Of a stretch of DNA of 64,000 nucleotides, positions 833 through 47,137 are shown piece by piece. The stretch is from the NCBI GenBank assembly GCA_021292105.1, contig CM037869.1, positions 8,962,704 to 9,026,703 on the forward strand, in the 5' to 3' direction. Position numbers and translations under genes: made by a program. The notes beneath the pieces are model-generated. The model did not search any database. It was not told where the DNA came from and saw only the letters and a list, made by a program, of their open reading frames with translations. This DNA is from Anadara kagoshimensis. Taxonomy: Eukaryota > Mollusca > Bivalvia > Arcoida > Arcidae. How positions within the stretch are numbered: the stretch's first letter is position 1; the number at the start of each line of letters is the position of its first letter.

Positions 833-2660
833 TGCTACCTCAAATAGTCAATATGTCACAGACAAGTATACCACTCCCCATTCACATTATACTGATATTA
901 GGTAAACCAGTCACTGCTACCTCAAATAGTCAATATGCCACAGACAAGCATACCACTCCCCAGTCACATTATACTGATATTAGGTGAACCAGTCACTGCT
1001 ACCTCAAATAGTCAATATGTCACAGACAAGCATACCACTCCCCAGTCACATTATACTGATATTAGGTGAACCAGTCACTGCTACCTCAAATAGTCAATAT
1101 GCCACAGACAAGCATACCACTCCCCAGTCACATTATACTGATATTAGGTGAACCAGTCACTGCTACCTCAAATAGTCAATATGCCACAGACAAGCATACC
1201 ACTCCCCAGTCACATTATACTGATATTAGGTGAACCAGTCACTGCTACCTCAAATAGTCAATATGCCACAGACAAGCATACCACTCCCCAGTCACATTAT
1301 ACTGATATTAGGTGAACCAGTCACTGCTACCTCAAATAGTCAATATGCCACAGACAAGCATACCACTCCCCAGTCACATTATACTGATATTAGGTGAACC
1401 AGTCACTGCTACCTCAAATAGTCAATATGCCACAGACAAGCATACCACTCCCCAGTCACATTATACTGATATTAGGTGAACCAGTCACTGCTACCTCAAA
1501 TAGTCAATATGCCACAGACAAGCATACCACTCCCCAGTCACATTATACTGATATTAGGTGAACCAGTCACTGCTACCTCAAATAGTCAATATGCCACAGA
1601 CAAGCATACCACTCCCCAGTCACATTATACTGATATTAGGTGAACCAGTCACTGCTACCTCAAATAGTCAATATGCCACAGACAAGCATACCACTCCCCA
1701 GTCACAATATACTGATATTAGGTGAACCAGTCACTGCTACCTCAAATAGTCAATATGCCACAGAGAAGCATACCACTCCCCAGTCACATTATACTGATAT
1801 TAGGTGAACCAGTCACTGCTACCTCAAATAGTCAATATGCCACAGACAAGCATACCACTCCCCAGTCCATTATACTGATATTAGGTGAATCAGTCACTGC
1901 TACCTCAAATAGTCAATATGCCACAGACAAGTATACCACTCCCCAGTCACATTATACTGATATTAGGTGAACCAGTCACTGCTACCTCAAATAGTCAATA
2001 TGCCACAGACAAGTATACCACTCCCCAGTCACATTATACTGATATTAGGTGAACCAGTCACTGCTACCTCAAATAGTCAATATGCCACAGACAAGTATAC
2101 CACTCCCCAGTCACATTATACTGATATTAGGTGAACCAGTCACTGCTACCTCAAATAGTCAATATACCACAGACAAGTATACCGCTCCCCAGTCACATTA
2201 TACTGATATTAGGTGAACCAGTCACTGCTACCTCACATAGTCAATATGCCACAGACAAGCATACCACTCCCCAGTCACATTATACTGATATTAGGTGAAC
2301 CAGTCACTACTACCTCAAATAGTCAATATGCCACAGACAAGTATACCGCTCCCCAGTCACATTATACTGATATTAGGTGAACCAGTCACTGCTACCTCAA
2401 ATAGTCAATATGCCACAGACAAGTATACCACTCCCCAGTCACATTATACTGATATTAGGTGAACCAGTCACTAATACCTCAAATAGTCAATATGCCACAG
2501 ACAAGTATACCGCTCCCCAGTCACATTATACTGATATTAGGTGAACCAGTCTCTACACTGTCCTCATTGCTACCTCACATAGTCAATATGCCACAATGAC
2601 AAGCATACCTCTCCCCAAGTCACATTATACTGACACCGCATGAACCAGTCGCTAAACTGT
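833..2660. repeat. 82-bp minisatellite, about 22 copies
   Basis: The unit begins gctacctcaaatagtcaata and runs 82 bp to gaaccagtcact. Most copies differ at 0-4 sites. Variants (c/t in acaagcat versus acaagtat; acca versus accg) cluster in the right half, which suggests local unit turnover. The last two copies (about 2545-2660) are diverged and carry an inserted tctacactgtcctcat block. Because 82 is not a multiple of 3, short ORFs in it are not coding. Confidence 0.95.
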
Positions 2661-4105
2661 CCTCATAATATCAAGATTCCAATGAAAAAGCAGTATCTAA
2701 AATTTTAAAGTCTTGAGTATTTTACAAATGGAGTACATGATGATGGCTGTTATTAATGTATGTGTAAAACAATTTCATTCATAATATTTGTCAACATGTA
2801 AATAAAACAAGATTGTGTTATTTCTCAGCTATTTTAAAACTGTATTTTTCAAATTATCCAATCTACCGTAAATAATCAAAGTGAATTGGATTCATTTAAT
2901 AATTTGTTTAACATTTTTCTCTTATGCTATATGTTTCCATTGCCATTGGCTTCGTATTTATGAAAATTCTTTCAAGTAGTAGCCTTTTTAGCAAATTTGT
3001 GAATAAATACTTAAAAAAGGGCTATATTTTCACATTTTTTGGAAATTACTTTGTGGAAACGTAGTAATTATAATATTGATTGTACAAGTCAGTACAAGCA
3101 TGTTTATGTATATGATGATAAAATGATAAGTTTTATTCACATAAATCTCTTACATTAGTATTACTATAGCTTCCTGTAGTAACATATGGGAAGTTTGTGG
3201 TTTCCTTTGTCTCTCGATAGGTCACACGGGAGCATGCCTATTGACCTATCAACTTTGACCTTTACCATATATGGGTATGTGAACTCTGTTTACCTTTTGC
3301 CTTTTAAAATATAACAACCAGCTGAAATATAGGCAGAGTTTGATCCTTGTCGTATGTAATGTGTGCTATTTTTTGTGTGTCACAGACATAGACTGTGAAT
3401 AATTACAATTATATTTGTGTTGTATAGTTATAATTTCATTCTATTATTTGGATTATTTATGTGTTGATTTTTCTTTATTAACAAAAAAAGAAAAACAAAA
3501 GAAATTTTTACAAAATAAACTTTTTATCAGGATTTTTATATTAAACATTGACAAGGTAAGAAATTTTATGTTATTTTGAAGGTTTTTAAGCATGTTTATC
3601 TGTAAAATAATTTGACAGATATATTTGACCTCATTAGAACAGGCATTGCTACTTTGAGGGGTGTTTGACCTGGAAATCATTGAGCTGACAAAGAAGTTTC
3701 TAATTATATCTGACTTGACCTTTGACCTATATTTGGTATACATATTTAGTAGGCATCGGAGATAAGCACACATAACTAATCTGTAACTCTTCCTTTGTAC
3801 TCGCTCTCTTCTCTCTATCTCTGTTATGTGTAATTCAGCACGTACACACTACAGTCGTACAGAGAGAAAAAGAGAGTGAAAGAAAGAGAGAGAGAGATTC
3901 CATGTGGTAGACATTTATTATGTGTACCGGGCACATATAGTACACTGTGAAACTCGGATGTATGAAAAATAATAATAGTTATAATATAATAATCTAATAT
4001 TCATTTATTGCTCATCTTACAATGTTTTTTTTTTTTTTTTTGGCAATTTAGCCGTTATCTCAAGTACTTATGAAAAGGGCTTATAATTGCTGAAAATTAT
4101 TTGTA

Positions 4106-4136
<31 letters not shown>

Positions 4137-4389
4137 TTTCACAAACACATATGGTTATGGCCAAGCAAAGTATTGCACATGTATTTTGTAAAACAGATAT
4201 ATAAGAGATATATATTACATGAGATTTGACTTGAGGCATTCACAAAAACACCAAAAAAAATTTAAAAAAACCCATAAAACAAAAAAAAAACCATTATTTG
4301 TTAAGGATAAACTAATGATTTGAGTTATACTTAGTTCTACTGTATATAGTTTGAATGATAAAGAAACTTTCACATGCATACATAAACAC
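2661..4389. other. AT-rich non-coding stretch
   Basis: No exon recognised. It holds a 9-bp perfect inverted repeat gataggtca/tgacctatc (about 3217-3252), a GA-rich microsatellite (about 3857-3896), a poly-T run (about 4026-4041) and an aataatgataatg tract (about 4107-4135). Confidence 0.5.
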
Positions 4390-4497
4390 CCCTTCACACA
4401 CACACACACACACACACACACCACAAGAACCATCCTCCTCCTCACACACATGTGTCACACACACCACACACACACACACCACACACACACACACACT
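4390..4497. repeat. CA/CACACC microsatellite
   Basis: Interrupted (CA)n with ccacaca and tgtgtcac interruptions. Apparent ORFs on both strands (poly His/Thr or Val/Cys) come from the dinucleotide repeat. Confidence 0.9.
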
Positions 4498-5825
4498 GTA
4501 TTACGAGATAGGTATACATGTTACAGTGCTATTGTACCTTATTGTACAAGAATTATCATATTATTAGTCAGATTATGTAGTAGCGTTGGCGTATTATGGA
4601 TTTCAAATTACGACTCGGCTGGTTTTAATTCATTCTTAAGAAGATGATAATCCTGTGGTTATGACCATATATGGTTAATAAAGACGAGACGTAATATTAA
4701 CAAAATCAATACTAAGATTTATAAGATTTCATGATGCACACAAAGTGACTCTACAAACACAGGAAGGTGAAGGCTTTAAATAAAAATATTTTCTTATAAA
4801 TATCAGAAATAATGATAAATAACAACAATCGGGGGAGGAATTATTTTTTTCAATAACATTAGGGGGAGGAAATCCTTTTGAAATAATATTAGGGGTAGAA
4901 ATTCCTGTTGTAGCCCTTCCCACCATTACACATTCAAATCGAAAAAATTATTTTCAACAGAAAAGTGCAAAATGGCTTGATTCTGTTACATAAAGGCTTT
5001 TTCATTCAAAATTAAAATATTAGTGGAGGTTAAAAATGGAATTCTTTACACAACTAGGTGGTAGGTTAGTGGATGTCACTGTCTGTTCAAGTAGCTATAG
5101 TCAAATTTATTTCCCTTTTATAGAGGGAGTCAACTCTGAAATGTTTAGGAAACCAGAATGCCAGAAAATCTGGGACAGACAAGTTCTCAAACTGGTTTAA
5201 CCTTGGTGAGAATTGAACCTATACCAGTTGACAATATAAATTCAGTAAAATGTTTTGGTAAACAGTTGGTAAATCTTTTAACCCTAATTTCTTAATTAAA
5301 TGTCCTTTGCTGAAGTTACAAAAAAACTGTCCCATTACAAAACTGAGTGCAAATATTTGTTTATATCATTACAGTGGCAGATTGGAACCAAGTCACATGT
5401 CATAAATTGTGTTTTAATTATAAAATCAGTAAAAATGTGTAATTGGAGAGGTAGTTAAGTAATTGGAATTTTGTTGATTTTCTTTGACAGGAGAGTTCTC
5501 ATGGGTTAATATTAAATTCTGGGATACGTCATGCTGTGTCACCTTACCCCAGCAGACTCAGGGACTCTAACTTTGTAAATCTTTGAAGAGAAAAATTTCT
5601 ATCTCACATTAAGAAGAAATATCTTTTCCTTCATGCTTAGCTGTTTTCATCATAAAAATACTTTATGTGTTCTAAGTTAGTGGTGAGCCAAATGGTGATT
5701 CATGAATCAGGATTTGGGTTGGTTGTTGCATGGTTGTTACATGTTGTTTAACATCACAGCTATCTCTGACGAGAACAAGTTTATTAAATTCTGAGAATTG
5801 ATCTAAGAACGTGTATGTGTGAGAT
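4498..5825. other. Non-coding, with a dispersed AT-rich motif and a worn SINE piece
   Basis: About 4920-5040 carries a motif (aaaatggcttgattctg region) also recognisable near 17110-17170, 18930-19015, 40860-40920 and 47470-47580, so it is a low-copy dispersed repeat. At about 5125-5220 the words aaaccagaatgccag and tgagaattgaacc suggest a heavily decayed SINE. No exon seen. Confidence 0.35.
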
Positions 5826-6055
5826 GTACCAGTGTGTTTTATGGTTTGCCTTGTACTAGCACAAACTTAGGTGCTAACTCACAGGGTCTCTACTCTGTAA
5901 ACAAGCATACCACATTTTATGTGGGAGTTCATGGGTTTAAACCCTGGCAGAGTCTGACTTAAACGTGAAAATAGGTACCGGTAGTGACTTTGACAAGCAT
6001 TCAGCATTTAGAAATGAAAGTCACATGTGTTTTATGTTTTGCTCTATGGGATGAC
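5826..6055 (+). mobile_element. Degenerate family Q-like SINE
   Basis: The words tgggagttcatgggtttaaa (B-box region), gacttaaacgtgaaaatagg, agtgactttgacaagcattc and aaatgaaagtcacatgtg follow the order of the Q SINE body. Similarity is low and the 3' part is missing. Confidence 0.45.
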
Positions 6056-12119: not shown

Positions 12120-13856
12120 CTAAAGTAGTGCAGTTCAGTTTAGACAGGTTTTCTGTATTACAGTTCAGTTTATACAGGTGGTTTTCATTAGTTCAGTTCA
12201 GTTTAGACAGGTTTTCTGTAGTTCAGTTCAGTTTAGACAGGTTTTCTGTATTACAGTTCAGTTTATACAGGTGGTTTTCATTAGTTCATTTTAGACAGGT
12301 TTTCATTAGTTCAGTTCAGTTGAGACAGGATTTCATTAGTTCAGTTCAGTTTAGACAGGTTTTCATTAGTTCAGTTCAGTTAAGGCAAGTTTTCTGTAGT
12401 TCAGTTCAGTTTAGGCAAGTTTTCTGTGGCTCAGTTCAGTTTAGACAGGATTCCTGTAGTTCAGTTCAGTTTAGACAGGTTTTCATTAGTTCAGTTTAGA
12501 CAGGTCTTCTGTAGTTCAGTTCAGTTTAGACAGGTTTTCATTAGTTCAGTTCAGTTTAGAAGGTTTTCATTAGTTCAGTTCAGTTTAGACAGGTTTTCAT
12601 TAGTTCAGTTCAGTTGAGACAGGATTTCTGTAGTTCAGTTCAGTTTAGACAAGTTTTCTGTAGTTCAATTTAGATAGGTCTTCTGTAGTTCAGTTCAGTT
12701 TAGACAGGTTTTCATTAGTTCAGTTCAGTTTAGAAGGTTTTCATTAGTTCAGTTCAGTTGAGACAGGAATTCTGTAGTTCAGTTCAGTTTAGATAGGTTT
12801 TCTGTAGTTCAGTTCAGTTTAGACAGGTTTTCATTAGTTCAGTTTAGACAGGTCTTCTGTAGTTCAGTTCCGTTTAGACAGGTTGTCTGTAGTTCAGTTC
12901 AGTTTAGATGGGTTTTCATTAGTTCAGTTCAGTTTAGACAGGTTTTAATTAGTTCAGTTTAGACAGGTTTTCATTAGTTCAGTTCAGTTTAGACAAGTTT
13001 TCTGTGGCTCAGTTCAGTTTAGACAGGATTCCTGTAGTTCAGTTCAGTTTAGACAAAATTTCTGTAGTTCAGTTTAGTTTAGACAAGTTTTCTGTAGTTC
13101 AGTTCAGTTTAGACAGGTTTTCTGTAGTTCAGTTCAGTTTAGACAGGTTTTCATTAGTTCAGTTCAGTTTAGAAGGTTTTCATTAGTTCAGTTCAGTTGA
13201 GACAGGAATTCTGTAGTTCAGTTCAGTTTAGATAGGTTTTCTGTAGTTCAGTTCAGTTTAGACAGGTTTTCATTAGTTCAGTTTAGACAGGTCTTCTGTA
13301 GTTCAGTTCCGTTTAGACAGGTTGTCTGTAGTTCAGTTCAGTTTAGATGGGTTTTCATTAGTTCAGTTCAGTTTAGACAGGTTTTAATTAGTTCAGTTTA
13401 GACAGGTTTTCATTAGTTCAGTTCAGTTTAGACAAGTTTTCTGTGGCTCAGTTCAGTTTAGACAGGATTCCTGTAGTTCAGTTCAGTTTAGACAAAATTT
13501 CTGTAGTTCAGTTTAGTTTAGACAAGTTTTCTGTAGTTCAGTTCAGTTTAGACAGGTTTTCTGTAGTTCAGTTCAGTTTAGACAGGTTTTCATTAGTTCA
13601 GTTCAGTTAAGGCAAGTTTTCTGTAGCTCAGTTCAGTTTAGACAGGTTTTCTGTGGCTCAGTTCAGTTTAGACAGGATTCCTGTAGTTCAGTTCAGTTTA
13701 GACAGGTTTTCTGTAGTTCAGTTCAGTTTAGACAAAATTTCTGTAGTTCAGTTTAGACAAAATTTCTGTAGTTCAGTTTAGTTTAGACAAGTTTTCTGTA
13801 GCTCAGTTCAGTTTAGACAGGTTTTCTGTAGTTAAGTTCAGCTTAGACAGGTTTTC
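12120..13856. repeat. 30-bp minisatellite with a 439-bp internal duplication
   Basis: The unit is agttcagttcagtttagaca ggttttctgt (30 bp) with frequent variants ending ttttcatt, or shortened to a single agttcagttt. A block starting about 12680 recurs from about 13119, offset 439 bp, and I see no difference between the two over the length read. Open frames in it are repeat artefacts. Confidence 0.95.
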
Positions 13857-21407: not shown

Positions 21408-21479
21408 ATAGTGAACTACATTTCTGGCTACTGATAACTAACATGGTGACCTACATTTCTGGCCACTCATTACTAACAT
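21408..21479. repeat. 35-bp minisatellite, left part, ending in LINE target duplication
   Basis: About two units of actaacatggtgacctacat ttctggctactaatt. The last 17 bases (21463-21479, ccactcattactaacat) are repeated exactly at 29171-29187, on the far side of the LINE. Confidence 0.9.
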
Positions 21480-21758
21480 TTTTTTTTTTTGTAATTGATA
21501 TTTTTTATTGGCCAGACTTAACTAATGGATGAATGATGCCAGGGTTGGAACCTGCCCTGGGTTCATCATACTTACAAATTTTAGCCACAAAATATTTTTA
21601 ACAAAAATTTACATAATATTTGTATATATACTAGGTATATTTAACATATACATACTTAATATATTGTCAAATTTGGTACTTTACATTTTATATAGCATTT
21701 GGCAAATAAAGCTATTTCATGCAGTCTGGTTTTTTAAATTTGTTTTGGTATGCATGCA

Positions 21759-21796
<38 letters not shown>

Positions 21797-22124
21797 CATG
21801 TTAGCATATGCATGTGTGTGTGTGTGTGTGTGTGTGTAAGATAGATAGATAAAATGGAGATTGAGAGATAGGTTACCAGAAAGAATGACAGTGTAGCATA
21901 ATAGCGAAAAAAGGAGAAAATCTGGTAACAGGACTAGAAAACTAGACTAAGGAAGGAAGGAGGAAAGGAAGAAGTACTTGTCATATATTTTGTGTTTGTT
22001 TATATGCATACATTATCAATATTAAGCACAAAAGATGGACAGTTCACAGCATTAATCTTAGAGTGACAACAAAAAAAGAGAAAAAACATATCTCATAATT
22101 TAAATTCTGTTATTACAGTTATAT
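21480..22124 (-). other. LINE 3' UTR with CA repeat and poly-A end
   Basis: Between the ORF2 stop and the poly-A end. Contains a (TG)n tract on the plus strand (21761-21838) and purine-rich sequence (about 21940-21980). The element ends in plus-strand poly-T at 21480-21490, directly against the target duplication. Confidence 0.8.
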
Positions 22125-25100
22125 CTAACAAAGCTTGAACCATGGGAACCACAAAGTGTAAAATTCATCATAACGACAGTTTTTAAAAAGGATATAACGT
22201 TCTATTTCCAAATTCTTTTTTATTATGTTTTGAAGAGCAAAAATATTTAACTGATGCTTTTGTATTTTAGTTCTATATATATATTGTTTAATATTTAGTA
22301 TTAGCCAGTTAAGCACTTTGTTTTGTTTATCTGTATATCCTAATAAAATTACTTTTTTACTTAATTCTATTTGTTCATTTTTTGTGTTAAAGATCCATCT
22401 TTGGATAGATTCCCATAGTTCGTACACTTTATAACAGTCATAGAACAGGTGTTCCAGTGTTTCAACTTCATTGTTACAAAATGTACACTTATCCGAGTCA
22501 ACATAATTGATTTTATATAAGAATGAGTTTGTAGCTAAGATTCTATGCAGGATCCTGTACTGAAACCATTGGGAAGTTGTATTTTTTGTAATTTTGAATG
22601 GTAGAATATAGTAATTTCTCCATTCTAATTCAGAGATGTTATAGTTTAAATTTGCATATTTAGTCTGAGCTTTTGGATGGATATCGGTCCGCTTCAGAAC
22701 CCCATAAATCTCTTTGCAACCTTTTTCATCTTTAAGAATGGATTTTAAATTATATGACATTTTAGGTCTATTGAGATTCTGAAATGGGCAGACATCCAAT
22801 CCCAAAACTTTTTTTTGGTATGATTTTACACTACTTATTAAAGAATTATACTCTAGAAAATTAGAGTCTACATCATATCTTGCAATAAAACTTTCATACT
22901 TTAAGAATTTTCCATGAACATCCATTAGATCATGTATCATTGTTATATTCTTTTCTATATATTTTGTATAAATAATTGGTTTAAAATCTTTCCTTATATT
23001 ACTGTTATAGAAAATATTAACACTTGCCATATCTTCAAAATTTTTTGGAATTTCTTTTTTTTGGAGAATTTTCCAACTTTGTAAAACATCATTCCAAAAG
23101 TTGTTTATGATTTTTCTCTGTTTTATATCAATAAAATAATCTCCACAATTGTAAATTTCATCCAGATTTATATTTGTTATTACTTTGCTAAGTTTCGCCC
23201 ATTTTGATTCACTATTTTTAATAATTCTTCTAATCCATGTACATTTCAAAGCTGTAAAGAATTTTGGTAAACTAATCATTTTTATGCCTCCGTAACCATA
23301 ATCTTGAATAAGTATATCTCTTTTTATCTTCTCTGGCTTGTTTTCCCAAATGAAATTAAAAAATAATTTCTCTAGATCTTTTACTAGTTTCTCATTTGGA
23401 TTCGGTAGGGAAATAATTAAGTGGGTAATTTTTGGAATTATTAGAGTTTTTAATACAGTATTTCTTCCTAACATCGTCAATTTTCTATGTGACCAATTTT
23501 TTATAGTACTTTTAATTTCTTTTATTTTTAAGTCATAATTTTGATCTGTGATCTGATCTAAATTTACTGAAAAATTTATGCCTAGTAATTTAAAGTTTGT
23601 AACTCCCCACTCTAGTTTCCATTTATCTCGGTGAAAAACTTCGGATGAAAATTTTTTACTCCCAATCCATATAACTTTGGTTTTTGTATAATTAATTTTA
23701 AGTCCAGAAACTCCTGCATAGTAATCTAAAACTCTTAGAGTATTGTCTAGGGAACTGGGAGACCCATCTAACATAAAACTAGTATCGTCTGCATACTGGG
23801 ATATTAAATATTCTTCCCCTTCAATTTCTATTCCTTTTATTTCAGGATTTGATTTTATCAAAATTGCTAGTATCTCTGCACACAATATAAAAATATATGG
23901 TGATAAGGGATCACCTTGCCTGCAACCTCTTTCTAATTTAAATCTTTCCGATATGAAACCGTTTTGTGTAACTGCAGATTCTGCATTATTATATAGAGTT
24001 TGAATCCAACACTTAATAGAATCCTTGAAATTAAAAATAGATAAAACTTTTTGTATAAATTCCCATGAAACTGAATCGAATGCTTTTTCAAAATCAACAA
24101 GTAATAATAAGCCTGGCATATTGTTAATATCAGTATATTGCATTATATCATATATTAACCTAATATTTTCTCCTATAAAGCGACCTTTTATAAATCCTGT
24201 CTGATCTTTTGAAATAAGTGTATCAAGTGTTTTTTTAATTCTGTTTGCTATGCAGCCTGATGCAATTTTGTAGACACAATTTAATAAACTTATTGGTCTC
24301 CAGTTTTTTAAGTATTCTTTTTGTTTATCCGGTTTTGGTATACAAGTAATTATGCCTAGTTTCTGTGTATTGGACATTTCTTTTATGTTGTAACTATAAT
24401 TTATTGATCTTACTATAAAGTAACCAATGTCTATCCAAAAAAATTTAAAAAATTCGGTGGTAAAACCATCCGAGCCAGGACTTTTGTCATTTTTCATATT
24501 CTTTAAAAAATATTTTGCTTCAGAATAGGTTATCTCCCCTTCAATCAGTTTTGCTTCATCATCTGAAAGTATGTTGAAATTTAAGTATTTTAATTTTTCT
24601 ATAATACAGTCCTCATTTATTTTCCTAGGTTTTGAATAAAGTGTCTGATAAAAATTTTTTGTTTCCCTTAATATTTCTTTTTGGTCTGTTATAATTTCTC
24701 CATTTTCTTTTTCAATTTTTGCAATTAATTTACTGTAGTAATTTCTTGACTCCATATTACAGAAGTAATTTGTGGGTTTTTCGCCTTCTTCTATCCATTT
24801 TGCTTTCGCCCTTATAAAATGTCCCTTTAATTTTTCTTTTCTTAAATTCAAAAGTTCATTTTTTTTATCTTCTAAAATATCTATATTATTTTTGTCTTCG
24901 TTTTCTTCTAAAGTTTTAATATCTTCATTTAAGCACTGTTCTAATTTATTTTGTTCTTTTTTCTTGAAAGATGAATAGGATATAGTTTTGCCCCGGATTT
25001 CCATTAATAAGGTTTCTAAAAAAAGTTGGTCATTTACAGTTAATTGTAAATTTTCAGGATCTATAATATTAATCTGATTGATGTTATAAATGGGCACGGC

Positions 25101-25924
25101 ATATTGTAATTTAGTATTTTTTATTACCTCTTTAATACAATCAATATATTTGGAATCTTTTAGTAAAGAATTATTAAATTTCCAGAGACCTGGTCCTTTT
25201 TCTATATTTTTAAACTTCAAATTTAATACCACACCAGAATGATCAGATCTATAACTGTTTTCAACTGTTACTTTTTCTACAAATTGCATTAAATTTTTTG
25301 ATATTAAATGGAAATCTAACCTGGCTTGTTTAATTGGATTTTTTTTCCTCCATGTATATCGTTTCAATTTTGGATATAGTTCTCTAAAGGGATCTACTAG
25401 ATCGTATGTATCTAAATTGTCTAGTATACAACTCTGCGATTTTGGATTGTTAACATGTAAATAATAATTTGTATCTAAATTCTGATTTAATACAAGATTG
25501 AAATCTCCACAATTAAATATTTCTCATTTTGGAATTCCTCTAATTGTTTGAAAACATCGAGATAGAATTCTGCATTATCCTCATTAGGCCCATATATATT
25601 AACAATAGTAATTTTTTCCCCTTCTATAGTCATATCTGCTAATATTAAGTTTCCATTATTGTCACATTTATATTTATGAATTTCACACTCGAAATTATTG
25701 TTTATCATAATTGCAACGCCTCGTGCATTCCCTCTGTATGAATTAAAAATACACTTGTACCCCCATTGAGCTTGAATGTATGGTTCCATTTTCTCAGTAA
25801 AATGTGTATCTTGCAGACAATAAATATTGTAACATTTAGATTTCAAATATGAAAACAAATCTGTACGTTTGTGTGCGTCTCCCAGTCCCTGACAGTTTAC
25901 GGTCATGATCTTAATAGAAGTCAT
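22125..25924 (-). pseudogene. LINE ORF2: endonuclease-reverse transcriptase, one frameshift
   Basis: Encodes the enzyme that nicks target DNA and copies the element RNA into it (family knowledge). The first in-frame ATG is at 25924-25922, giving MTSIKIMTVNCQGLGD, the usual start of an L1-type AP-like endonuclease. RNARGVAIMINNNF and IVNIYGPNEDN are also seen. The frame breaks at about 25497-25510, where the conserved GGDFN site should be; one missing base explains it and the second frame stays open to the stop at 22125. That frame has the reverse transcriptase: DFEKAFDSVSW, RQGDPLSPYIF and the catalytic YADD (codons 23784-23795), then a C-terminal Cys motif CTFC...EHLFYDC (about 22438-22495). 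Total near 1270 codons, normal for L1. As it stands the copy should not make full-length ORF2 protein. Confidence 0.95.
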
Positions 25925-26877
25925 TAATATATCTATCAAATTTTAGTACACTTTGTAACATATTATTTATGCGATACTTATCACAATAAGTTATGCTGTA
26001 AGCATGGTAGAATGAATGGCAAAAAAAAGATAACAGGGATAGTATTGTTAAGCATTTAAAATTACAATTAATATATAAATCATTATTACTTCTTTTCTTT
26101 ACATTTGTACCTAACCATAGACAGTTACTATCCCTGTGATGAAAAAAGGGACAGAGATAATATAGAACAACACAATTTATGTAACATATAAACAGCACTG
26201 AATGCAACCATATATATTGAAACGTGATTAAATATAGAAGAGAAAAGAAAAAGATAGCAAGAATGAGAATAAAGTATAAAACAATCATTATTTCCAGCAT
26301 TGGTCAAACTGCAGCACCTGGCGATAATATGTTCATATTTAAAATGTCATGTCTTACAGGTTCTCACAGTATGTACATGATGTATGTTACATGTAATATG
26401 AAAAAATTCTAAAAAAACATCCTTGTTTAGCATAAATTCTCAAAATTATCTTTATCTTGTTTTCAAACACAATGAAAACTCTGTATTGACACAGAGGCAT
26501 ATAAAACCCGAGATACTTGACTGTCTGAAATCCGTAACATTGATTTAAATAGGTGTTACCAATCTCTGTTTTATATGTCTCTGATTGACATAAACATGTA
26601 TCAAGTGTCAGATTTTACCATTTAGAGGGAGACAAATCTTACGTCTCTATCCCAGGCAAATAGATAGGTTAGTAAAGATTATCTCCCTTTCCTTTACTAT
26701 CAATACCCAATACATATTTTTTTTTTTTTTTTTTTTTTTTTTAAATGTGACAAATACTTGGGGTTACATATAATATACATAGTGTTATAGTAAGAAAAAA
26801 TATTTTTTGGACAAATAATTTATCCAACTTTACAAAAAAGCTATATATATTTTTGTATGTTTTTGTTGTATACATTC
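25925..26877 (-). other. LINE spacer between NADAR ORF and ORF2, with A-run
   Basis: No supported coding sequence; a 129-codon open frame at 25911-26300 is hydrophobic AT-rich noise overlapping the ORF2 start. A plus-strand run of nearly 30 T (about 26719-26743), A-rich on the element strand, lies about 135 bases past the NADAR stop. It could be an internal A-tract of the element or the fossil tail of an inserted transcript. Confidence 0.6.
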
Positions 26878-27321
26878 TTATACATTTCTGTCTCTCAGTT
26901 TTTCTAATATCTTGCCCATCATATTTTTTCCGTCATAATAAAGCCCTGTTCCCCAAAATGGATTGGGGTCATCATGTATTATTACTTTATTTTTACACTT
27001 ACTATTTAAATAAGTATAAAATTCTGGGCACTGTTCTAATTTTGTTTCTAAAATTTTTTCCATTACTTTTACTTTATTATTATACCAGGCCGGAGCAGTG
27101 GCGATCTGTAAAGATATATTTTTCACCTCTCTGGCTGTGCTTGCCTGCATTATTTTATCTAATATATCATAAGCCTTGTGGAACTCTGCCTTTTCAAGCT
27201 GGTACAACTGTTCAGCAGACTGAAATGTTTTGCCTCTACTTTTTAGAGTACACTTGTAAAAGTTAGACAAAACACAGCCTTCACTACGAAAATAAATAGC
27301 CTCTAGATCCTCTAGATCCAC
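26878..27321 (-). CDS. NADAR (YbiA-like) domain protein encoded inside the LINE
   Basis: The 147-codon open frame reads as one whole NADAR domain. Landmarks: LSNFY (18-22), FQSAEQLYQLEKA (33-45, with the family Glu and Lys), APAWYNNKVKVMEKIL (76-91), TKLEQ (93-97), FWGTG (122-126) and DGKNMMGKIL (130-139). These match in order the core of E. coli YbiA as I recall it. Family knowledge: YbiA cleaves an N-glycosidic bond in riboflavin-pathway intermediates, and other NADAR proteins remove ADP-ribose from guanine. There is no in-frame ATG: the frame opens near 27403 and the first start-like codon is GTG at 27321. A splice-acceptor-like tract (tttctgtctatttatag) lies just upstream at about 27338-27354, so this may be a spliced exon, or the ATG may be lost. 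It lies between ORF1 and ORF2 on the same strand with no stop or frameshift. The domain call is firm; a role in retrotransposition is inference. Confidence 0.88.
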   Translation of the reverse strand: MDLEDLEAIYFRSEGCVLSNFYKCTLKSRGKTFQSAEQLYQLEKAEFHKAYDILDKIMQASTAREVKNISLQIATAPAWYNNKVKVMEKILETKLEQCPEFYTYLNSKCKNKVIIHDDPNPFWGTGLYYDGKNMMGKILEKLRDRNV

Positions 27322-28128
27322 CTGGCATTGATCTATAAATAGACAGAAACCATAAGAATGTATACAAGGGAAACTACTTCTTGTATTAATAATATAGTGA
27401 CATCATAAACTATCACATTTCGTCTCAACACTGACAAATAGAGCAATCAATTTCTTTAAAAAAATATATTACGCCTGGCAAAACACTATTCAGGGGAGGT
27501 CAGTTTTTTTTTTTTCAAGACTACATGTACCTGTCAGTGTCCTACCAAACATTTAACTCCAAGATTTAATGTTTGTACTCAAAGTAAATAAGATAGATAC
27601 CCTCTCAGATCATTACTTCCTCCCAATCCGCTGGACAAGTTCAGCAAACTGGGGAAAAACAAAAATCTGCGAGTGTATCTACCCTATTCAATTACAAACT
27701 ATACAGATCTGAGTATCCAAAATGATTCTAAATGTACCAGTATATAATGCAGGTTGTTAAGACAAAAACATTAACTGAGTGTTTTAATTAATACATTTTC
27801 TAAACGGTTAAAACAGTAACTAGACCACCTTCTTACAGTCTAATATCATCCAGTAGAGAGCATAATCCCTCTACTGGCCTAACTATTTACTGACTGTATG
27901 ATTGTATTTTTCTAAATCTGATGCGACCCGATAATAGGTACTTAATACCGGTCAAAAAGGAACCCCCTTTTTTTTCTACGAGCCTCAGATATACATATTT
28001 ACAGTACTTATAAACACCAAAAAGTAAAATTTCTCAGTCACCCATCACCATCTGTAAACTTATTGTTACAGAACAATATTCAAATTCAAATATTCAAATT
28101 AGAGTTTATTCGTCTGAAGATAGTTGAG
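27322..28128 (-). other. LINE spacer between ORF1 and NADAR ORF
   Basis: No supported coding sequence. A small hairpin (ccagtagag...ctctactgg, about 27851-27879) and a poly-T run at about 27968 are seen. The NADAR frame stays open up to about 27403. Confidence 0.55.
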
Positions 28129-29073
28129 TTAGGCTTCATATCTTGACCATGACGTATCCCCTGTACTGTTTTTAAATTCTAGGAAAACATTTGGGCCCCT
28201 TTCACGAAGTCTGGTAACTTTACCCTCTTTCCTCATGTCGAATGCTACCCTTAATAGTCTATGTCGCAGTTGTTTCAAGTCTGCTGGGAGGTCTGTCACT
28301 ATTCTCATTTGTTTGCCTTTTAGCCTTGGACCTCTGGATAACACTAAATCACGATCTACTAACCGGACAAACTTAATAATCACAGGTGGAGGTTTGTTTT
28401 CTGAAGCACCTAATTTATTGGAGAAACTATCACTATGCCGGACAGGCAATATATGGGCATTGGCAATCACAATCTTGTCTGCTCTATCTGGATCAATTTC
28501 AAGCTCTTTCACGAAAAAATCATTCAAAGTGCTCATGATATCTTTTCTTGCCCTTACCCCATAGATAATTAAATTATATTTTCTTGATCGCCACTCATTA
28601 TAGTGCATCCAGTCGAGCGCATTATTTAAAGTTTCTTCAAGGACAGAATTTTTTTTCACACTTTCCTCTAATTTACCTTGCAAGTCACTAATCTGTCGGT
28701 CTTGGAATTCTTGTGACACTTCAATGTCGTTTACTTTTAAATTCACTTCATTTACTTCATTTCTCATTTTATCAATGTTCTCAAACAACGGCTTTACAGC
28801 ACATTCTATCGCATCTATCAGGTCTTTTCTTACAGTCGTCTCGTGAAAATCACTTAATAGTTGTTTTATTGCTGTTATTGTCAATGTTTCCTCTGTATTT
28901 GCACTTGTTTGTGCACCAACAGACGCAACTGCGTCATTGTTCATATCTAGGTCACCGGGGGGGTTACCTTCTGTGTTAGTGGACTGTGACATCGAACGGC
29001 CGGTCTGTGCCCTAGTTAATATTGTTTTTATGTCCGTCTGCTTTGTCTGTTTTGTTTTGTCACTTCTGGACAT
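28129..29073 (-). CDS. LINE ORF1 protein (coiled coil plus RRM-like RNA-binding)
   Basis: Intact 314-codon ORF starting at the ATG at 29073-29071 (MSRSDKTKQTKQTDIK); the longer open frame upstream begins only at GTG. Layout from N to C: a basic, Ser/Thr/Asn-rich disordered part; a helical heptad-like region (about residues 75-160, ENIDKMRNEVNEVNLKVNDI and EFQDRQISDLQGKLEES) fit for a coiled coil; then a globular part opening WRSRKYNLIIYGVRA, the usual entry to the L1 ORF1p RRM-like domain; then RGPRLKGKQMRIVTDLPADL and a C-terminal domain. L1 ORF1 proteins form trimers that coat element RNA and act as nucleic-acid chaperones (family knowledge). No CCHC zinc knuckle is seen. It is the first ORF of the element, 98 bases from its 5' end, with the NADAR ORF next. 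Confidence 0.93.
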   Translation of the reverse strand: MSRSDKTKQTKQTDIKTILTRAQTGRSMSQSTNTEGNPPGDLDMNNDAVASVGAQTSANTEETLTITAIKQLLSDFHETTVRKDLIDAIECAVKPLFENIDKMRNEVNEVNLKVNDIEVSQEFQDRQISDLQGKLEESVKKNSVLEETLNNALDWMHYNEWRSRKYNLIIYGVRARKDIMSTLNDFFVKELEIDPDRADKIVIANAHILPVRHSDSFSNKLGASENKPPPVIIKFVRLVDRDLVLSRGPRLKGKQMRIVTDLPADLKQLRHRLLRVAFDMRKEGKVTRLRERGPNVFLEFKNSTGDTSWSRYEA

Positions 29074-29170
29074 CTTTATGTGGTTATTCACACTGCACTG
29101 ACACTACCACAGCTTTTTTTTTACCAGAGCTGAATCTCACGTGTATTCAGTCAGCCATACTACCGGAAGT
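29074..29170 (-). promoter_or_regulatory. LINE 5' UTR / putative internal promoter
   Basis: Only 97 bases. The transcript strand begins acttccggtagtatggctga: an ETS-type core (cttccgg) at the very first bases and an atggc word close behind, similar in idea to the ETS/YY1 arrangements at TSS-defining LINE promoters. There is no TATA box. Function is inferred from position. Confidence 0.4.
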
Positions 29171-29428
29171 CCACTCATTACTAACATGGTGACCTACATT
29201 TCTGGCTACTGAATACTAACATGGTGACCTACATTTCTGGCTACTAATTACTAACATGGTGACCTACATTTTTGGCTACTAATTACTAACATGGTGACCT
29301 ACATTTTTGGCTACTAATTACTAACATGGTGACCTACATTTCTGGCTACTGAATACTAACATGGTGACCTACATTTCTGGCTACTAATTACTAACATGGT
29401 AACCTACATTTCTGGCTACTAATTACGA
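29171..29428. repeat. 35-bp minisatellite, middle part
   Basis: About seven units of actaacatggtgacctacat ttctggctactaatt. The first 17 bases are the right copy of the LINE target duplication. The array stops at the SINE-bearing segment. Confidence 0.9.
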
Positions 29429-29716: not shown

Positions 29717-30506
29717 AAAACAGTGACCTATATTTCTTACAACTAGTTACCAGTACGGTGACCTACATTTCCTACAACTAGTTACCAGTACAGTGACCTA
29801 CATTTCTTACAACTAGCTACCAGTACGGTGACCTACATTTCTTACAACTAGTTACCAGTACAGTGACCTACATTTCCTACAACTAGTTACCAGTATGGTG
29901 ACCTACATTTCTTACAACTAGTTACCAGTATGGTGACCTACATTTATTACAACAAGTTACCAGTATGGTGACCTACATTTCTTACAACTAGTTACCAGTA
30001 TGGTGACCTACATTTATTACAACTAGTTACCAGTACAGTGACCTACATTTATTACAACTAGTTACCAGTACAGTGACCTACATTTATTACAACTAGTTAC
30101 CAGTACAGTGACCTACATTTATTACAACTAGTTACCAGTACGGTGACCTACATTTCTTACAACTAGTTACCAGTACGGTGACCTACATTTCTTACAACTA
30201 GTTACCAGTATGGTGACCTACATTTCTTACAACTAGTTACCAGTACGGTGACCTACATTTCCAGTACGGTGACCTACATTTCTTACAACTAGTTACCAGT
30301 ATGGTGACCTACATTTCTTACAACTAGTTACCAGTACGGTGACCTACATTTCTTACAACTAGTTACCAGTACGGTGACCTACATTTCTTACAACTAGTTA
30401 CCAGTACGGTGACCTATATTTATTACAAGTTACCAGTATGGTGACCTACATTTATTACAACTAGTTACCAGTATGGTGACCTACATTTATTGTTACTAAC
30501 AACCAG
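29717..30506. repeat. 35-bp minisatellite, right part, about 22 copies
   Basis: The unit is gttaccagtacggtgaccta catttcttacaacta. The gtgacctacattt core matches the array at 29171-29428 but the other half of the unit differs, so the two blocks have evolved apart. One shortened unit occurs near 30250. Confidence 0.95.
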
Positions 30507-33370: not shown

Positions 33371-33440
33371 TTTACAGGCACCTGTCAAGATTCTTTCACT
33401 TGTATCAAGGTCAGTTCTTTATTGGTGGAGGAAACTGGAG
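33371..33440 (-). mobile_element. SINE family V fragment feeding the 60-bp array
   Basis: The plus strand reads cacctgtcaagattctttca cttgtatcaagg and tggaggaaactggag, the 3' part of family V in antisense. It continues without a break into the first 60-bp unit, whose sequence is the next SINE segment. Confidence 0.75.
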
Positions 33441-34636
33441 TGCCCAGTGTAAACCACCAAACTCCAGCAAGTAAACTGATAATAATGCCCCTCAACAAAG
33501 TGCCCAGTATAAACCACCAAACTCCAGCAAGCAAACTGATTATTATGCCCCTCAACAAAGTGCCCAGTATAAACCACCAAACTCCAGCAAGCAAACTGAT
33601 TATAATGCCCCTCAACAAAGTGCCCAGTGTAAACCACCAAACTCCAGCAAGCAAACTGATAATAATGCCCCTCAACAAAGTGCCCAGTATAAACCACCAA
33701 ACTCCAACAAGCAAACTGATAATAATGCCCCTCAACAAAGTGCCCAGTGTAAACCACCAAACTCCAGCAAGTAAACTGATAATAATGCCCCTCAACAAAG
33801 TGCCCAGTATAAACCACCAAACTCCAGCAAGCAAACTGATTATAATGCCCCTCAACAAAGTGCCCAGTGTAAACCACCAAACTCCAGCAAGCAAACTGAT
33901 AATAATGCCCCTCAACAAAGTGCCCAGTGTAAACCACCAAACTCCAGCAAGCAAACTGATAATAATGCCCCTCAACAAAGTGCCCAGTGTAAACCACCAA
34001 ACTCCAACAAGCAAACTGATAATAATGCCCCTCAACAAAGTGCCCAGTGTAAACCACCAAACTCCAGCAAGCAAACTGATTATAATGTCCCTCAACAAAG
34101 TGCCCAGTATAAACCACCAAACTCCAACAAGTAAACTGATAATAATGCCCTCAACAAAGTGCCCAGTATAAACCACCAAACTCCAGCAAGTAAACTGATA
34201 ATAATGCCCCTCAACAAAGTGCCCAGTGTAAACCACCAAACTCCAGCAAGCAAACTGATTATAATGCCCCTCAACAAAGTGCCCAGTATAAACCACCAAA
34301 CTCCAACAAGTAAACTGATAATAATGCCCCTCAACAAAGTGCCCAGTATAAACCACCAAACTCCAACAAGTAAACTGATAATAATGCCCCTCAACAAAGT
34401 GCCCAGTGTAAACCACCAAACTCATGCAAGTAAACTGATAATAATGCCCCTCAACAAAGTGCCCAGTATAAACCACCAAACTCCAACAAGTAAACTGATA
34501 ATAATGCCCCTCAACAAAGTGCCCAGTATAAACCACCAAACTCCAGCAAGCAAACTGATAATAATGCCCCTCAACAAAGTGCCCAGTGTAAACCACCAAA
34601 CTCCAGCAAGTAAACTGATTATAATGCCCCTCAACA
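33441..34636. repeat. 60-bp minisatellite, 20 copies, SINE-derived
   Basis: Twenty units of tgcccagtgtaaaccaccaa actccagcaagtaaactgat aataatgcccctcaacaaag. One unit (ending about 34159) is 59 bp after loss of a C. The first two thirds match SINE family V antisense (gtgcccagagaaaaccacca, agcaagcaaactgataaac). The 60-bp period keeps several frames open on both strands (up to 454 codons), with no sign of a real protein. Confidence 0.95.
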
Positions 34637-35330
34637 ATTTTGCCACCTAGCTTATTGCTTAAGTATTTTGAGATCTCAAAATCAGTTTCTTCTATGTTTT
34701 TCTTTATACCTCTCCCTGGATATGTTGCCAAAATCCTTTTCAACACCAAATTTTGACTAAATCATTTATCTAAATAACATAAATATGTTACATAGACAAG
34801 CCCTGGGCTTACTATAAGGTATCTACTTATAGTAAATAAAGAATTACTGTCTTAAAGCTATACATTAAGTAAGGCTGAAATTTGATAAAAAATATCAATT
34901 TCTTATTGGTCTACGTGCAGTTACGCAAATATCTCTCACCATTTTCCTTGCTTTGTAAAGTGATTGGTTTTGAGTGGTCTTAGCACTATAATTTTTAATT
35001 TTATTTCCTTTTCCTTTAAATTTCCTTATTTAACTGAACAAAATATATAAAAAGAATTTTGTTGATAACATGATAATATTTTAACAATGGAAAAGGGAAT
35101 TTTTGTTTTGTAAAAACCACATTTTGATGTTGTTATTGTTGTTATCGTAATACACCATAAAAACCATGGTTTTCTAAAAATAGAAATAATTTTATAGTAG
35201 GGGAATTTAGTTTCGGAAAACCCACATTTTGACCATGTAGTAATACATCATAACAACACATGTGTGTAGTTGATCAGAACATGCGTTACACAGACAAAGA
35301 AAATTGAATATTTACAGATATTAGTACTGG
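34637..35330. other. Non-coding stretch
   Basis: AT-rich; contains the palindrome attttgagatctcaaaat near 34663. No exon recognised. Confidence 0.4.
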
Positions 35331-44682: not shown

Positions 44683-47137
44683 AGCTCACCTGACCGAAGG
44701 TCATGTGAGCTTATGGCATAGCGCAGCGTGTGTATGTGCGTGTGTGCGTGTGTGCGTCGTTAACACCTATTTTCGACTTCTCCTCTGAAACTACTGGACA
44801 GTTTTTAATGAAACTTTGTCATAAGTATATATGGGTCGGTGCAATTCAGATTTGTTCGTGGCGTTGCCATGGCTACCATAACTAGGTCAAGGTGACCTAG
44901 GGGTGCAAAAATCTTAAAAAATCTTCTTCTCCGAAAGTACTGATTGGAGAAAAAATCTGATGTGATATTTGGCTTCTCTAGGGTCTTAAGCCTATAGTTT
45001 GTTCATTTTGTGAAATTCGGATAAAAAATAGGTTACGCGTTTTTGCGTTTAATTTTGAAAAAATCGTAAAATAGCTTCAAATTGTTATAACTTGACTATT
45101 TGACCAGATAATGACATGGGGTTTTCAGTTTTGACATCTTCTTGTTAGTATCTTCAAATTGAGGTCAAGGTCAATTGTGAAGGTCATGACCTAATTTTTT
45201 TTACCTCTGATTATAATTATTATCTCGAAAACTATAAACTTTTTGTATAGGCATGTATATTAGAATGTTGTAGGTATTGATACAACGATCATTTTGATGT
45301 ATAGAAAAAGGTCATGGGTTCAAAGGTCAAGGTCACAGATGTGAAACAATACGAAATGGTTAATTATCTTGAAAACTATCAACTTTTTGTATAGGCATGT
45401 ATATTAGAATGTTGTAGGTATTGATACAACGATCATTTGATGTATAGAAAAAGGTCATGGGTTTAAAGGTCAAGGTCACAGATGCGAAACAATACCCAAA
45501 TGGTTAATTATCTCGAAAACTATAAACATTTTGTATAGGCATGTATATTAGAATGTTGTAGGTATTGATACAACGATCATTTTGATGTATAGAAAAAGGT
45601 CATGGGTTCAAAGGTCAAGGTCACAGATGCGAAACAATACCCAAATGGTTAATTATCTCGAAAACTATAAACATTTTGTATAGGCATGTATATTAGAATG
45701 TTGTAGGTATTGATACAACGATCATTTTGATGTATAGAAAAAGGTCATGGGTTCAAAGGTCAAGGTCACAGATGCGAAACAATACCAAAATGGTTAATTA
45801 TCTCGAAAACTATTAACATTTTGTATAGGCATGTATATTAGAATGTTGTAGGTATTGATACAATGATCATTTTGATGTATAGAAAAAGGTCATGGGTTCA
45901 AAGGTCAAGGTCACAGATGTGAAACAATACCAAAATGGTTAATTATCTCGAAAACTATAAATTTTTTGTATAGGCATGTATATTAGAATGTTGTAGGTAT
46001 TGATACAACAATGATTTTGATGTATAGAAAAAGGTCATAGGTTCAAAGGTCAAGGTCACATATGCGAAACAATACCAAAATGGTTAATTATCTCGAAAAC
46101 TATAAACTTTTTGTATAGGCATGTATATTAGAATGTTGTAGGTATTAATACACAATCATTTGATGTATAGAAAAAGGTCATGGGTTCAAAGGTCAAGGTC
46201 ACAGATGTAAAACAATACCGAAATGGTTAATTATCTCGAAAACTATAAATTTTTTGTATAGGCATGTATACTAGAATGTTGTAGGTATTGATACAACAAT
46301 CATTTTGATGTATAGAAAAAGGTCATAGGTTCAAAGGTCAAGGTCACAGATGCGAAACAATACCGAAATGGTTAATTATCTCGAAAACTATAAACTTTTT
46401 GTATAGGCATGTATATTAGAATGTTGTAAGTATTGATACAACGATCATTTTGATGTATAGAAAAAGGTCATGGGTTCAAAGGTCAAGGTCACAGATGCAA
46501 AACAATACCCAAATGGTTAATTATCTCAAAAACTATAAACTTTTTGTATAGGCATGTATATTAGAATGTTGTAAGTATTGATACAACGATCATTTTGATG
46601 TATAGAAAAAGGTCATGGGTTCAAAGGTCAAGGTCACAGATGCGAAACAATACCGTAATGGTTAATTATCTCGAAAACTATAAACTTTTTGTATATGCAT
46701 GTATATTAGAATGTTGTAGATATTGATACAACAATCATTTTGATGTATAGAAAAAGGTTATGGGTTTAAAGGTCAAGGTCACATATGCGAAACAATACCG
46801 AAATGGTTAATTATCTCGAAAAACTATAAACTTTTTGTATAGGCATGTATATTAGAATGTTGTAGGTATTGATACATAGGTCATATTGATGTATAGAAAA
46901 AGGTCATGAGTTCAAAGGTCAAGGTCACAGATGTGAAACAATACTGAAATGGTTAATTATCTTGAAAACTATTAACTTTTTGTATAGGCATTTATATTAG
47001 AATGTTGTAGGTATTGATACAACAGTTATCATGATTTAAAGAAAAATGTCATTGGGGTTTAGTATTTATGTTTTCTTAAATCTATCAGCTAGCCATTAGT
47101 TGTCAGGTGAGCGTATCAGGCCCATGGGCCTCTTGTT
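44683..47137 (+). mobile_element. Hairpin-ended element with internal satellite (Helentron-like)
   Basis: The 5' end forms a hairpin, agctcac...gtgagct with inner gacc-gaa-ggtc. The 3' end has gtcaggtgagc, inverted to the 5' end, followed by the perfect palindrome ggcccatgggcc (47119-47130) and tcttgtt. Between lie a unique leader of about 500 bp with a gtgtgcgtgtgtgcgtc tract and a 145-bp array. Inverted subterminal repeats, a 3' hairpin and internal tandem repeats fit the non-autonomous Helentron/pearl-like elements of bivalves (family knowledge); class is inferred. No helicase or transposase ORF. Confidence 0.7.
45206..47070 (+). repeat. 145-bp satellite, about 13 copies, inside the hairpin-ended element
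   Basis: Unit anchors taattatctcgaaaactata fall at 45361, 45505, 45650, 45795, 45940, 46085, 46228, 46373, 46518, 46663, 46808 and 46954, giving a 143-146 bp period. Every complete unit holds ttcaaaggtcaaggtcac. The first and last units grade into the unique ends. Confidence 0.95.

Follow-up and report, generated by a model that had tools for sequence, protein, structure and literature searches.

A NADAR domain is carried by an L1/Tx1-type LINE of the bivalve Anadara kagoshimensis as an exon-like frame between ORF1 and ORF2, where it has been mobilised with the element and, to judge by comparison of copies, kept under purifying selection, and splice-like sequences of conserved phase in ORF1 and ahead of the domain suggest that the domain is fused by RNA splicing to the N-terminal half of the ORF1 protein. 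We hold it to be probable, although well short of certain, that such splicing yields a coiled coil-NADAR protein which counters a host ADP-ribosylation defence. The LINE lies in a window of 64,000 nucleotides, by which the whole stretch of DNA analysed is meant (Table 1). The first-pass annotation, which had pointed out the frame, knew of no LINE of this kind; NADAR in a LINE is already described, however, because PMC12477816 reports several Tx1 LINEs of Crassostrea gigas whose ORF1 proteins contain the domain. What is known is thus NADAR in LINE ORF1, and what is new is a NADAR frame without a usable ATG behind a splice-like site, with a matching donor in ORF1.

Table 1. Features of the LINE copy and of its NADAR frame in the window (a slash marks a putative exon border)
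Feature	Positions	Strand	Remarks
Target-site duplication copy 1, CCACTCATTACTAACAT, 17 bp	21463..21479	.	
Complete LINE copy, 7,691 bp	21480..29170	-	5' end 29170, A tail at 21480; based on target-site duplication and full-length copies
3' UTR and A tail	21480..22124	-	
ORF2 remainder, reverse transcriptase and zf-RVT	22125..25523	-	Pfam
ORF2 endonuclease part	25487..25942	-	broken near its end in the window copy
Internal A tract, 26 nt	26718..26743	-	3' of NADAR
16-nt perfect inverted repeat, other arm	26866..26881	.	overlaps NADAR stop codon
Putative NADAR exon up to stop codon	26878..27332	-	predicted 283-aa fusion from ATG when joined to ORF1
NADAR domain PF08719	26887..27282	-	Pfam profile, structure comparison
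Putative intron, 1,344 nt	27333..28676	-	contains ORF1 RRM and CTD and the non-coding gap
Putative 3' splice site TCTTATGGTTTCTGTCTATTTATAG/AT, phase 1	27333..27357	-	
16-nt perfect inverted repeat arm	27352..27367	.	flanks NADAR exon; arm inside putative intron
ORF1 from ATG (MSRSDK...), 314 aa	28129..29073	-	long helix, RRM, C-terminal domain; open frame 28129-29091
Putative 5' splice site AAG/GTAAAT in ORF1, phase 1	28671..28679	-	last exon base 28677
Target-site duplication copy 2, CCACTCATTACTAACAT, 17 bp	29171..29187	.	

The perfect target duplication that had been taken to fix the ends of the element is present and, together with the 3' A tail, gives the copy the ends of an L1/Tx1-type LINE; the NADAR frame (26878-27321) indeed shares the minus strand with ORF1 and with ORF2 (about 25942-22125) and sits between them. 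In the ORF1 model (mean pLDDT 70; residues counted from 29091) a helix at residues 72-170 is followed by an RRM-like fold, Foldseek ranks the ORF1p trimer of human LINE-1 first among PDB matches (E near 1e-5), and profile matches to LINE-1 ORF1p comprise 2ldy (E=7e-6) and 2w7a (E=0.002); the predicted order of coiled coil, RRM and CTD is that of the L1/Tx1 type, with the coiled coil represented by the long helix of a single-chain model. ORF2, searched at 22125-25367, matches RVT_1 (E=5.8e-34) and zf-RVT (E=4.1e-08) in Pfam, and a frame change near 25487-25523 breaks it inside the endonuclease part. The 150-aa endonuclease piece of the window has no Pfam match; the window ORF2 aligns with that of locus L045, the endonuclease of which matches Exo_endo_phos, and by sequence it appears to comprise APE endonuclease and reverse transcriptase, as in the L1/Tx1 type. 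Tx1 is counted among the LINE clades of bivalves (PMC10294476). A scan of the window with Rfam gave no match at gathering score. The target duplication is contained in a 35-bp tandem repeat, the other displayed units of which differ from CCACTCATTACTAACAT; such 35-bp repeats adjoin the insertion at 29173-29426 and 29723-30488, which places the LINE at or inside an array.

The identification of the frame as NADAR, made from landmarks in its translation, held in a search with Pfam PF08719 (E=1e-20, 75.1 bits, cut-off 35.1; the match spans positions 9-161 of the 163 in the profile). It is also uninterrupted as claimed, but the count of 147 codons begins at a GTG, and from stop to stop the frame has 174 codons (27402-26881, minus strand), with its first Met inside the domain and no in-frame ATG upstream of the domain in the window copy. 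An AlphaFold2 model (pLDDT 95.4), for which 16 NADARs of the same genome were aligned, has only two PDB matches at E<=0.001, YbiA (2b3w) and a Phytophthora NADAR with ADP-ribose (8bau; TM 0.86, 1.9 A in Foldseek), so that the modelled fold is that of NADAR and YbiA; nidovirus polyproteins appear among the structural matches as well. By sequence alignment, E37 and K44 of the window correspond to E88 and K95 of the E. coli C7 NADAR, with a spacing of 7 in both; the Glu is found in 16/16 aligned NADARs, the Lys in at least 90%, and W123 is likewise retained. The third catalytic position, a Glu in the last strand in the YbiA subfamily, is by alignment a His (H116) in 15/16 and Glu only in a CCHC type described below, so that the window NADAR appears to lack the mark of that subfamily. 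IMG/VR, searched with the NADAR protein, yielded no relative.

In the genome searched (1.115 Gb, G000, window included) five more copies (L031-L034, L037) align with the window LINE over its full length, with ends within three bases and at 97.6-99.5% identity, while L035, L036 and L038-L041 match it in pieces (BLAST of fetched loci). All seven copies tested begin with ACTTCCGG, in full or less one base, and end with AAAATATCAATTAC(A)n, and six of seven further copies (L032, L033, L034, L037, L038, L041) are flanked by their own, mutually different target duplications of 10-15 bp, some of which include As possibly belonging to the tail; the duplication of L031 has 7 bp only. When copies were chosen independently of NADAR, with its downstream flank (26300-26860) as query, 17 loci matched over most of the query, besides a fragment of 196 bases and a single match of 55 bases, and NADAR adjoins the match in 17/17 loci. 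Its frame is fully open in 12 of these (window included), open but short on the 5' side in two, broken in two and reduced in one to its final 43 residues, with a stop. The order ORF1-NADAR-ORF2 recurs in a 66%-identical family and in further families. ORF2 is split into at least two frames in each of 11 copies fetched, by assembly error or by decay, and no intact relative was therefore seen.

Counted per kb in 11 copies aligned to the window copy, which were picked by NADAR score and are biased accordingly, NADAR has 2.30 substitutions and 0.38 indels, the fewest indels of any region, compared with 3.72 and 0.93 in ORF1, 2.43 and 1.42 in ORF2, 5.41 and 5.41 in the gap from ORF1 to NADAR, 6.67 and 5.00 in the gap from NADAR to ORF2 and 10.51 and 8.14 in the 3' UTR. 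Between families, NADAR pN is 0.18-0.35 versus a mostly saturated pS of 0.66-0.83, and omega is 0.22-0.24 in the three computable pairs, while the values above 0.6 in close pairs (dN/dS 1.65 for L009/L014, 0.70 for L046/L027) come from very few changes. Within the family, NADAR has six synonymous and five non-synonymous changes (P=0.01, which is overstated because two synonymous changes are common to L034 and L038), and both length changes are multiples of three. NADAR distances correlate with those of ORF1 (Mantel r=0.75, 2/2000 permutations) and of the endonuclease (r=0.76, 4/2000), more weakly so inside the larger lineage alone (r=0.60, 69/2000). Full-length copies, separate duplications, linkage and the rate comparison bear out the proposal that NADAR is a genuine LINE part, repeatedly mobilised and selected.

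A NADAR profile search of the genome gave 341 candidates, of which 150 were scored and 150/150 exceeded the cut-off. Same-strand matches to LINE ORF1 and/or ORF2 accompany NADAR in 42 of the 51 loci read (the 30 best-scoring, 20 chosen and the window), including 24 of the 30 best-scoring, and fall into at least ten families; L001-L004, L023, L026, L042, L049 and L050 are without a LINE ORF match. ORF1 search matches that reach 140 aa and 49% identity number 59, of which at least 48, counted by eye, have NADAR within 3 kb downstream. LINEs of other make-up are found too: ORF1 of a CCHC type (CCHC read by eye) is fused directly to NADAR in L016-L019, which form their own 100/100 tree branch, and the LINE L044 (G000:C15:7515700-7524700) has a 672-aa ORF1 with a GDSL-like segment below cut-off, a NADAR ORF that begins at an ATG of its own right past the ORF1 stop, and then endonuclease and RT.

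NADAR also occurs in a DNA transposon, L049 (G000:C5:3147000-3156500), where a single 1592-aa frame (1092-5867) contains NADAR (E=2.7e-19) and a MULE transposase (E=1.5e-07); a 560-aa frame at C15:58960525 has the same NADAR score as L049, and a 507-aa frame at C3:13742915 a similar one. The 1598-aa frame of L050 (1219-6012; G000:C11:8400000-8409500) combines a GDSL lipase-like segment, NADAR and a weak, sub-cut-off DUF6589, and in L001, L002 and L042 a GDSL/SGNH-like hydrolase segment follows NADAR in frame or close to it (by Pfam in L001, by similarity to L001 in the others).

The candidate donor of the window is part of a 35-nt string identical in all nine family copies that retain the region, window included, and in the related family L047 the homologous codon is AGT, which gives AAA/GTAAAG although Gly became Ser. 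In the larger lineage the candidate donor is G/GTGAG, also in phase 1, and is written with the codons GGT GAG in 27/27 ORF1 copies and 11/11 distinct families; the remaining Glu codons of these segments comprise 36 GAA and 20 GAG, GGT accounts for 5 of 23 other Gly codons, and out of 15 invariant ORF1 residues compared over seven families a single codon is used only at this pair. The codon test took all 27 short stretches fetched for the larger lineage, nine of which have no NADAR within 3 kb among the matches listed; they are no NADAR-free control because they come from the same families as the rest. A more distant ORF1 clade (11 loci), with no GTRAG in the stretch and GTAAA in two loci, is a weak control, its site being unalignable. 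On the acceptor side, a polypyrimidine-AG in phase 1 precedes NADAR in 10/10 families listed (window, L047, L005, L008, L009, L020, L023, L045, L046, L048), with 11-17 of 17 bases pyrimidine in strings chosen by eye; left out were L003, with a similar site and flanks in which no LINE ORF was found, and L026, an L023-family member with a changed site. In copy L041 the acceptor is changed to TTTAAAG. Joining donor to acceptor gives an open, in-frame fusion in seven families. That of the window is predicted to retain some 67 helix residues (72-138 in the ORF1 model) and to drop RRM and CTD.

A donor at the ORF1 stop codon, where it had been expected first, was not found; the one inside ORF1 emerged only upon scoring all GT sites and was therefore chosen post hoc, with the codon tests run afterwards. 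Since the GTAAAT of the window is weaker than the donors of the larger lineage, falls below every threshold in that scoring and lies some 20 residues from them in the ORF1 protein alignment, the donors of the two lineages are not clearly homologous. Fused queries for two families recovered no spliced retrocopies, and two of their matches, over 1-77 and 1-78, are by position ORF1 reading on past the donor, and a stop is present in each. On the NADAR tree, much of which is poorly resolved, the spliced arrangement takes 3 changes (bootstrap 2-4).

Because the frame has no ATG and lies behind a 3'-splice-like site, a fusion of the ORF1 coiled coil with NADAR is the likely product, and not a stand-alone protein. 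Translation of NADAR as a third ORF from unspliced RNA, by non-AUG initiation, reinitiation or internal entry and with an incidental polypyrimidine-AG, would agree with a frame that is open upstream to 27402 and with L044, where the separate NADAR starts a few codons past the ORF1 stop; we judge it quite improbable, as the window copy offers no in-frame ATG before the domain, whereas the NADARs outside the spliced arrangement (L001, L042, L044) have one just ahead of it, and the phase-1 acceptors of the ten families listed and the codon-frozen donor in ORF1 likewise speak against it. It is hardly conceivable that NADAR arrived as a passenger, through the chance insertion of a host-derived or foreign retrocopy, with an A tract of its own, into a single LINE copy. 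Such an origin would suit the internal A tract (28 and 19 nt in two other copies inspected, L032 and L034), the ORF1-ORF2 gap of 2.2 kb and the inverted repeat around the NADAR exon, the length of which was reached in 0/1000 shuffles (shuffle maximum 14) and which is present in four family copies tested and absent from the related L047. Ten nucleotides shared by 26710 and 27991 might represent a nested duplication, but a match of this length is judged within chance, and no convincing second duplication was found for a cassette of A tract and inverted repeat. A private insertion is ruled out because the other genomic copies carry NADAR, in 17/17 cases and in the same order across diverged families, and selection on the frame points the same way; a passenger could still fit the first, ancient capture of the domain.

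In the mechanism that we infer for the spliced fusion, from splicing and trimer entry to catalysis, substrate and host defence, unspliced RNA would give ordinary ORF1p and ORF2p and be the form copied into the genome, while a fraction of transcripts would be spliced from the donor in the long helix of ORF1, before the RRM, to the acceptor just ahead of NADAR. The second ORF1 product would consist of coiled coil and NADAR, without RRM and CTD; the coiled coil may let it assemble into ORF1p trimers, which would deliver NADAR to the RNA-protein particle of the element, where it would most likely hydrolyse ADP-ribose off modified bases of the element RNA or cDNA, or off nearby ADP-ribosylated targets, and thereby counter a host defence by ADP-ribosylation. 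We know of no settled role for base ADP-ribosylation in clams, and no DarT relative was found in this genome. The most likely purpose is to free the RNA or cDNA of the element from ADP-ribose, because the Glu and Lys are kept, NADARs are known to reverse guanine ADP-ribosylation (PMC11543638, PMC11125620), and guanine ADP-ribosylation, which the first-pass annotation had brought up for clams, is reported in six edible clams (PMC11209040). Hydrolysis in vitro did not always mean protection in cells, and the physiological roles of eukaryotic NADARs, animals included, are called unclear (PMC11125620). The fusion may also be real and serve another end, with NADAR as a non-catalytic ADP-ribose-binding adaptor, a protein ADP-ribose hydrolase (acting for example on PARP products on ORF1p) or a YbiA-like small-molecule N-glycosidase, and the riboflavin intermediates on which YbiA works (PMC11543638) as well as the His at the third catalytic position, shared with phage NADARs (PMC11125620), can be read in its favour; against it stand the retained Glu, Lys and W123 and the hydrolysis of guanosine-ADP-ribose by every NADAR/YbiA protein tested (PMC11125620), and we regard it as rather unlikely, though credible.

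The C. gigas elements are Tx1-group bivalve LINEs with NADAR, as the window element, an L1/Tx1-type LINE, probably is too, and for them a role of the domain in processing RNA intermediates has been proposed (PMC12477816). There NADAR is inside the ORF1 protein, whereas the unspliced ORF1 of the window is without it and the domain sits in a separate, ATG-less, exon-like frame; in this respect L017 of the same genome is of the contiguous C. gigas type and the window LINE is not. Gypsy of Ectocarpus is likewise a retrotransposon with NADAR, but an LTR element of a brown alga in which a contiguous fusion places the domain at the Pol N-terminus (PMC12477816). Nidoviruses and annelid or bivalve picornaviruses are also RNA-based replicators with NADAR, which in their case is located in viral polyproteins and not in a retroelement (PMC9503650). 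The DarT1-NADAR antitoxins and YarT-YbiA (PMC11543638, PMC11125620) share the fold, the Glu and Lys and the ADP-ribose site, but belong to bacterial toxin-antitoxin operons and have Asp or Glu where most aligned LINE NADARs have His. Human LINE-1 likewise has donor and acceptor inside the element, with 5'UTR/ORF1 splicing that gives rise to SpIREs (PMC5860796); the products there are truncated or internally deleted mRNAs, whereas here the putative sites recur across families and connect ORF1 to a second domain without loss of frame, and a search of two families gave no spliced copies. In the available open-access text on NADAR in retrotransposons, LINEs or bivalves, or on LINE ORF1 splicing or accessory domains, nothing on a spliced NADAR exon was found.

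If the proposed splicing holds true, a LINE would use it as a conserved route to an accessory protein and not by accident. Selection maintains NADAR in many families of transposons, among them both classes and several architectures, which offers a testable link between host ADP-ribosylation of element nucleic acid and NADAR. With somewhat less than even confidence, we suggest that this LINE lineage conserves splicing which swaps the RNA-binding half of ORF1 for an ADP-ribose hydrolase, as a particle-borne counter-defence, and that the separate capture of the same domain by other LINEs and by DNA transposons would point to an ADP-ribosylation-based transposon defence in molluscs.

Elsewhere in the window, an 88-bp unit repeated nine times (56105-56893) contains an apparent coding exon with a GTAAGT donor, and the frames that flank this repeat resemble TPR repeats of KDM6A/UTX. 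Large minisatellites lie at 33439-34637 (60-bp units), 833-2551 (82 bp), 12125-13856 (30 bp) and 45219-47052 (145 bp).
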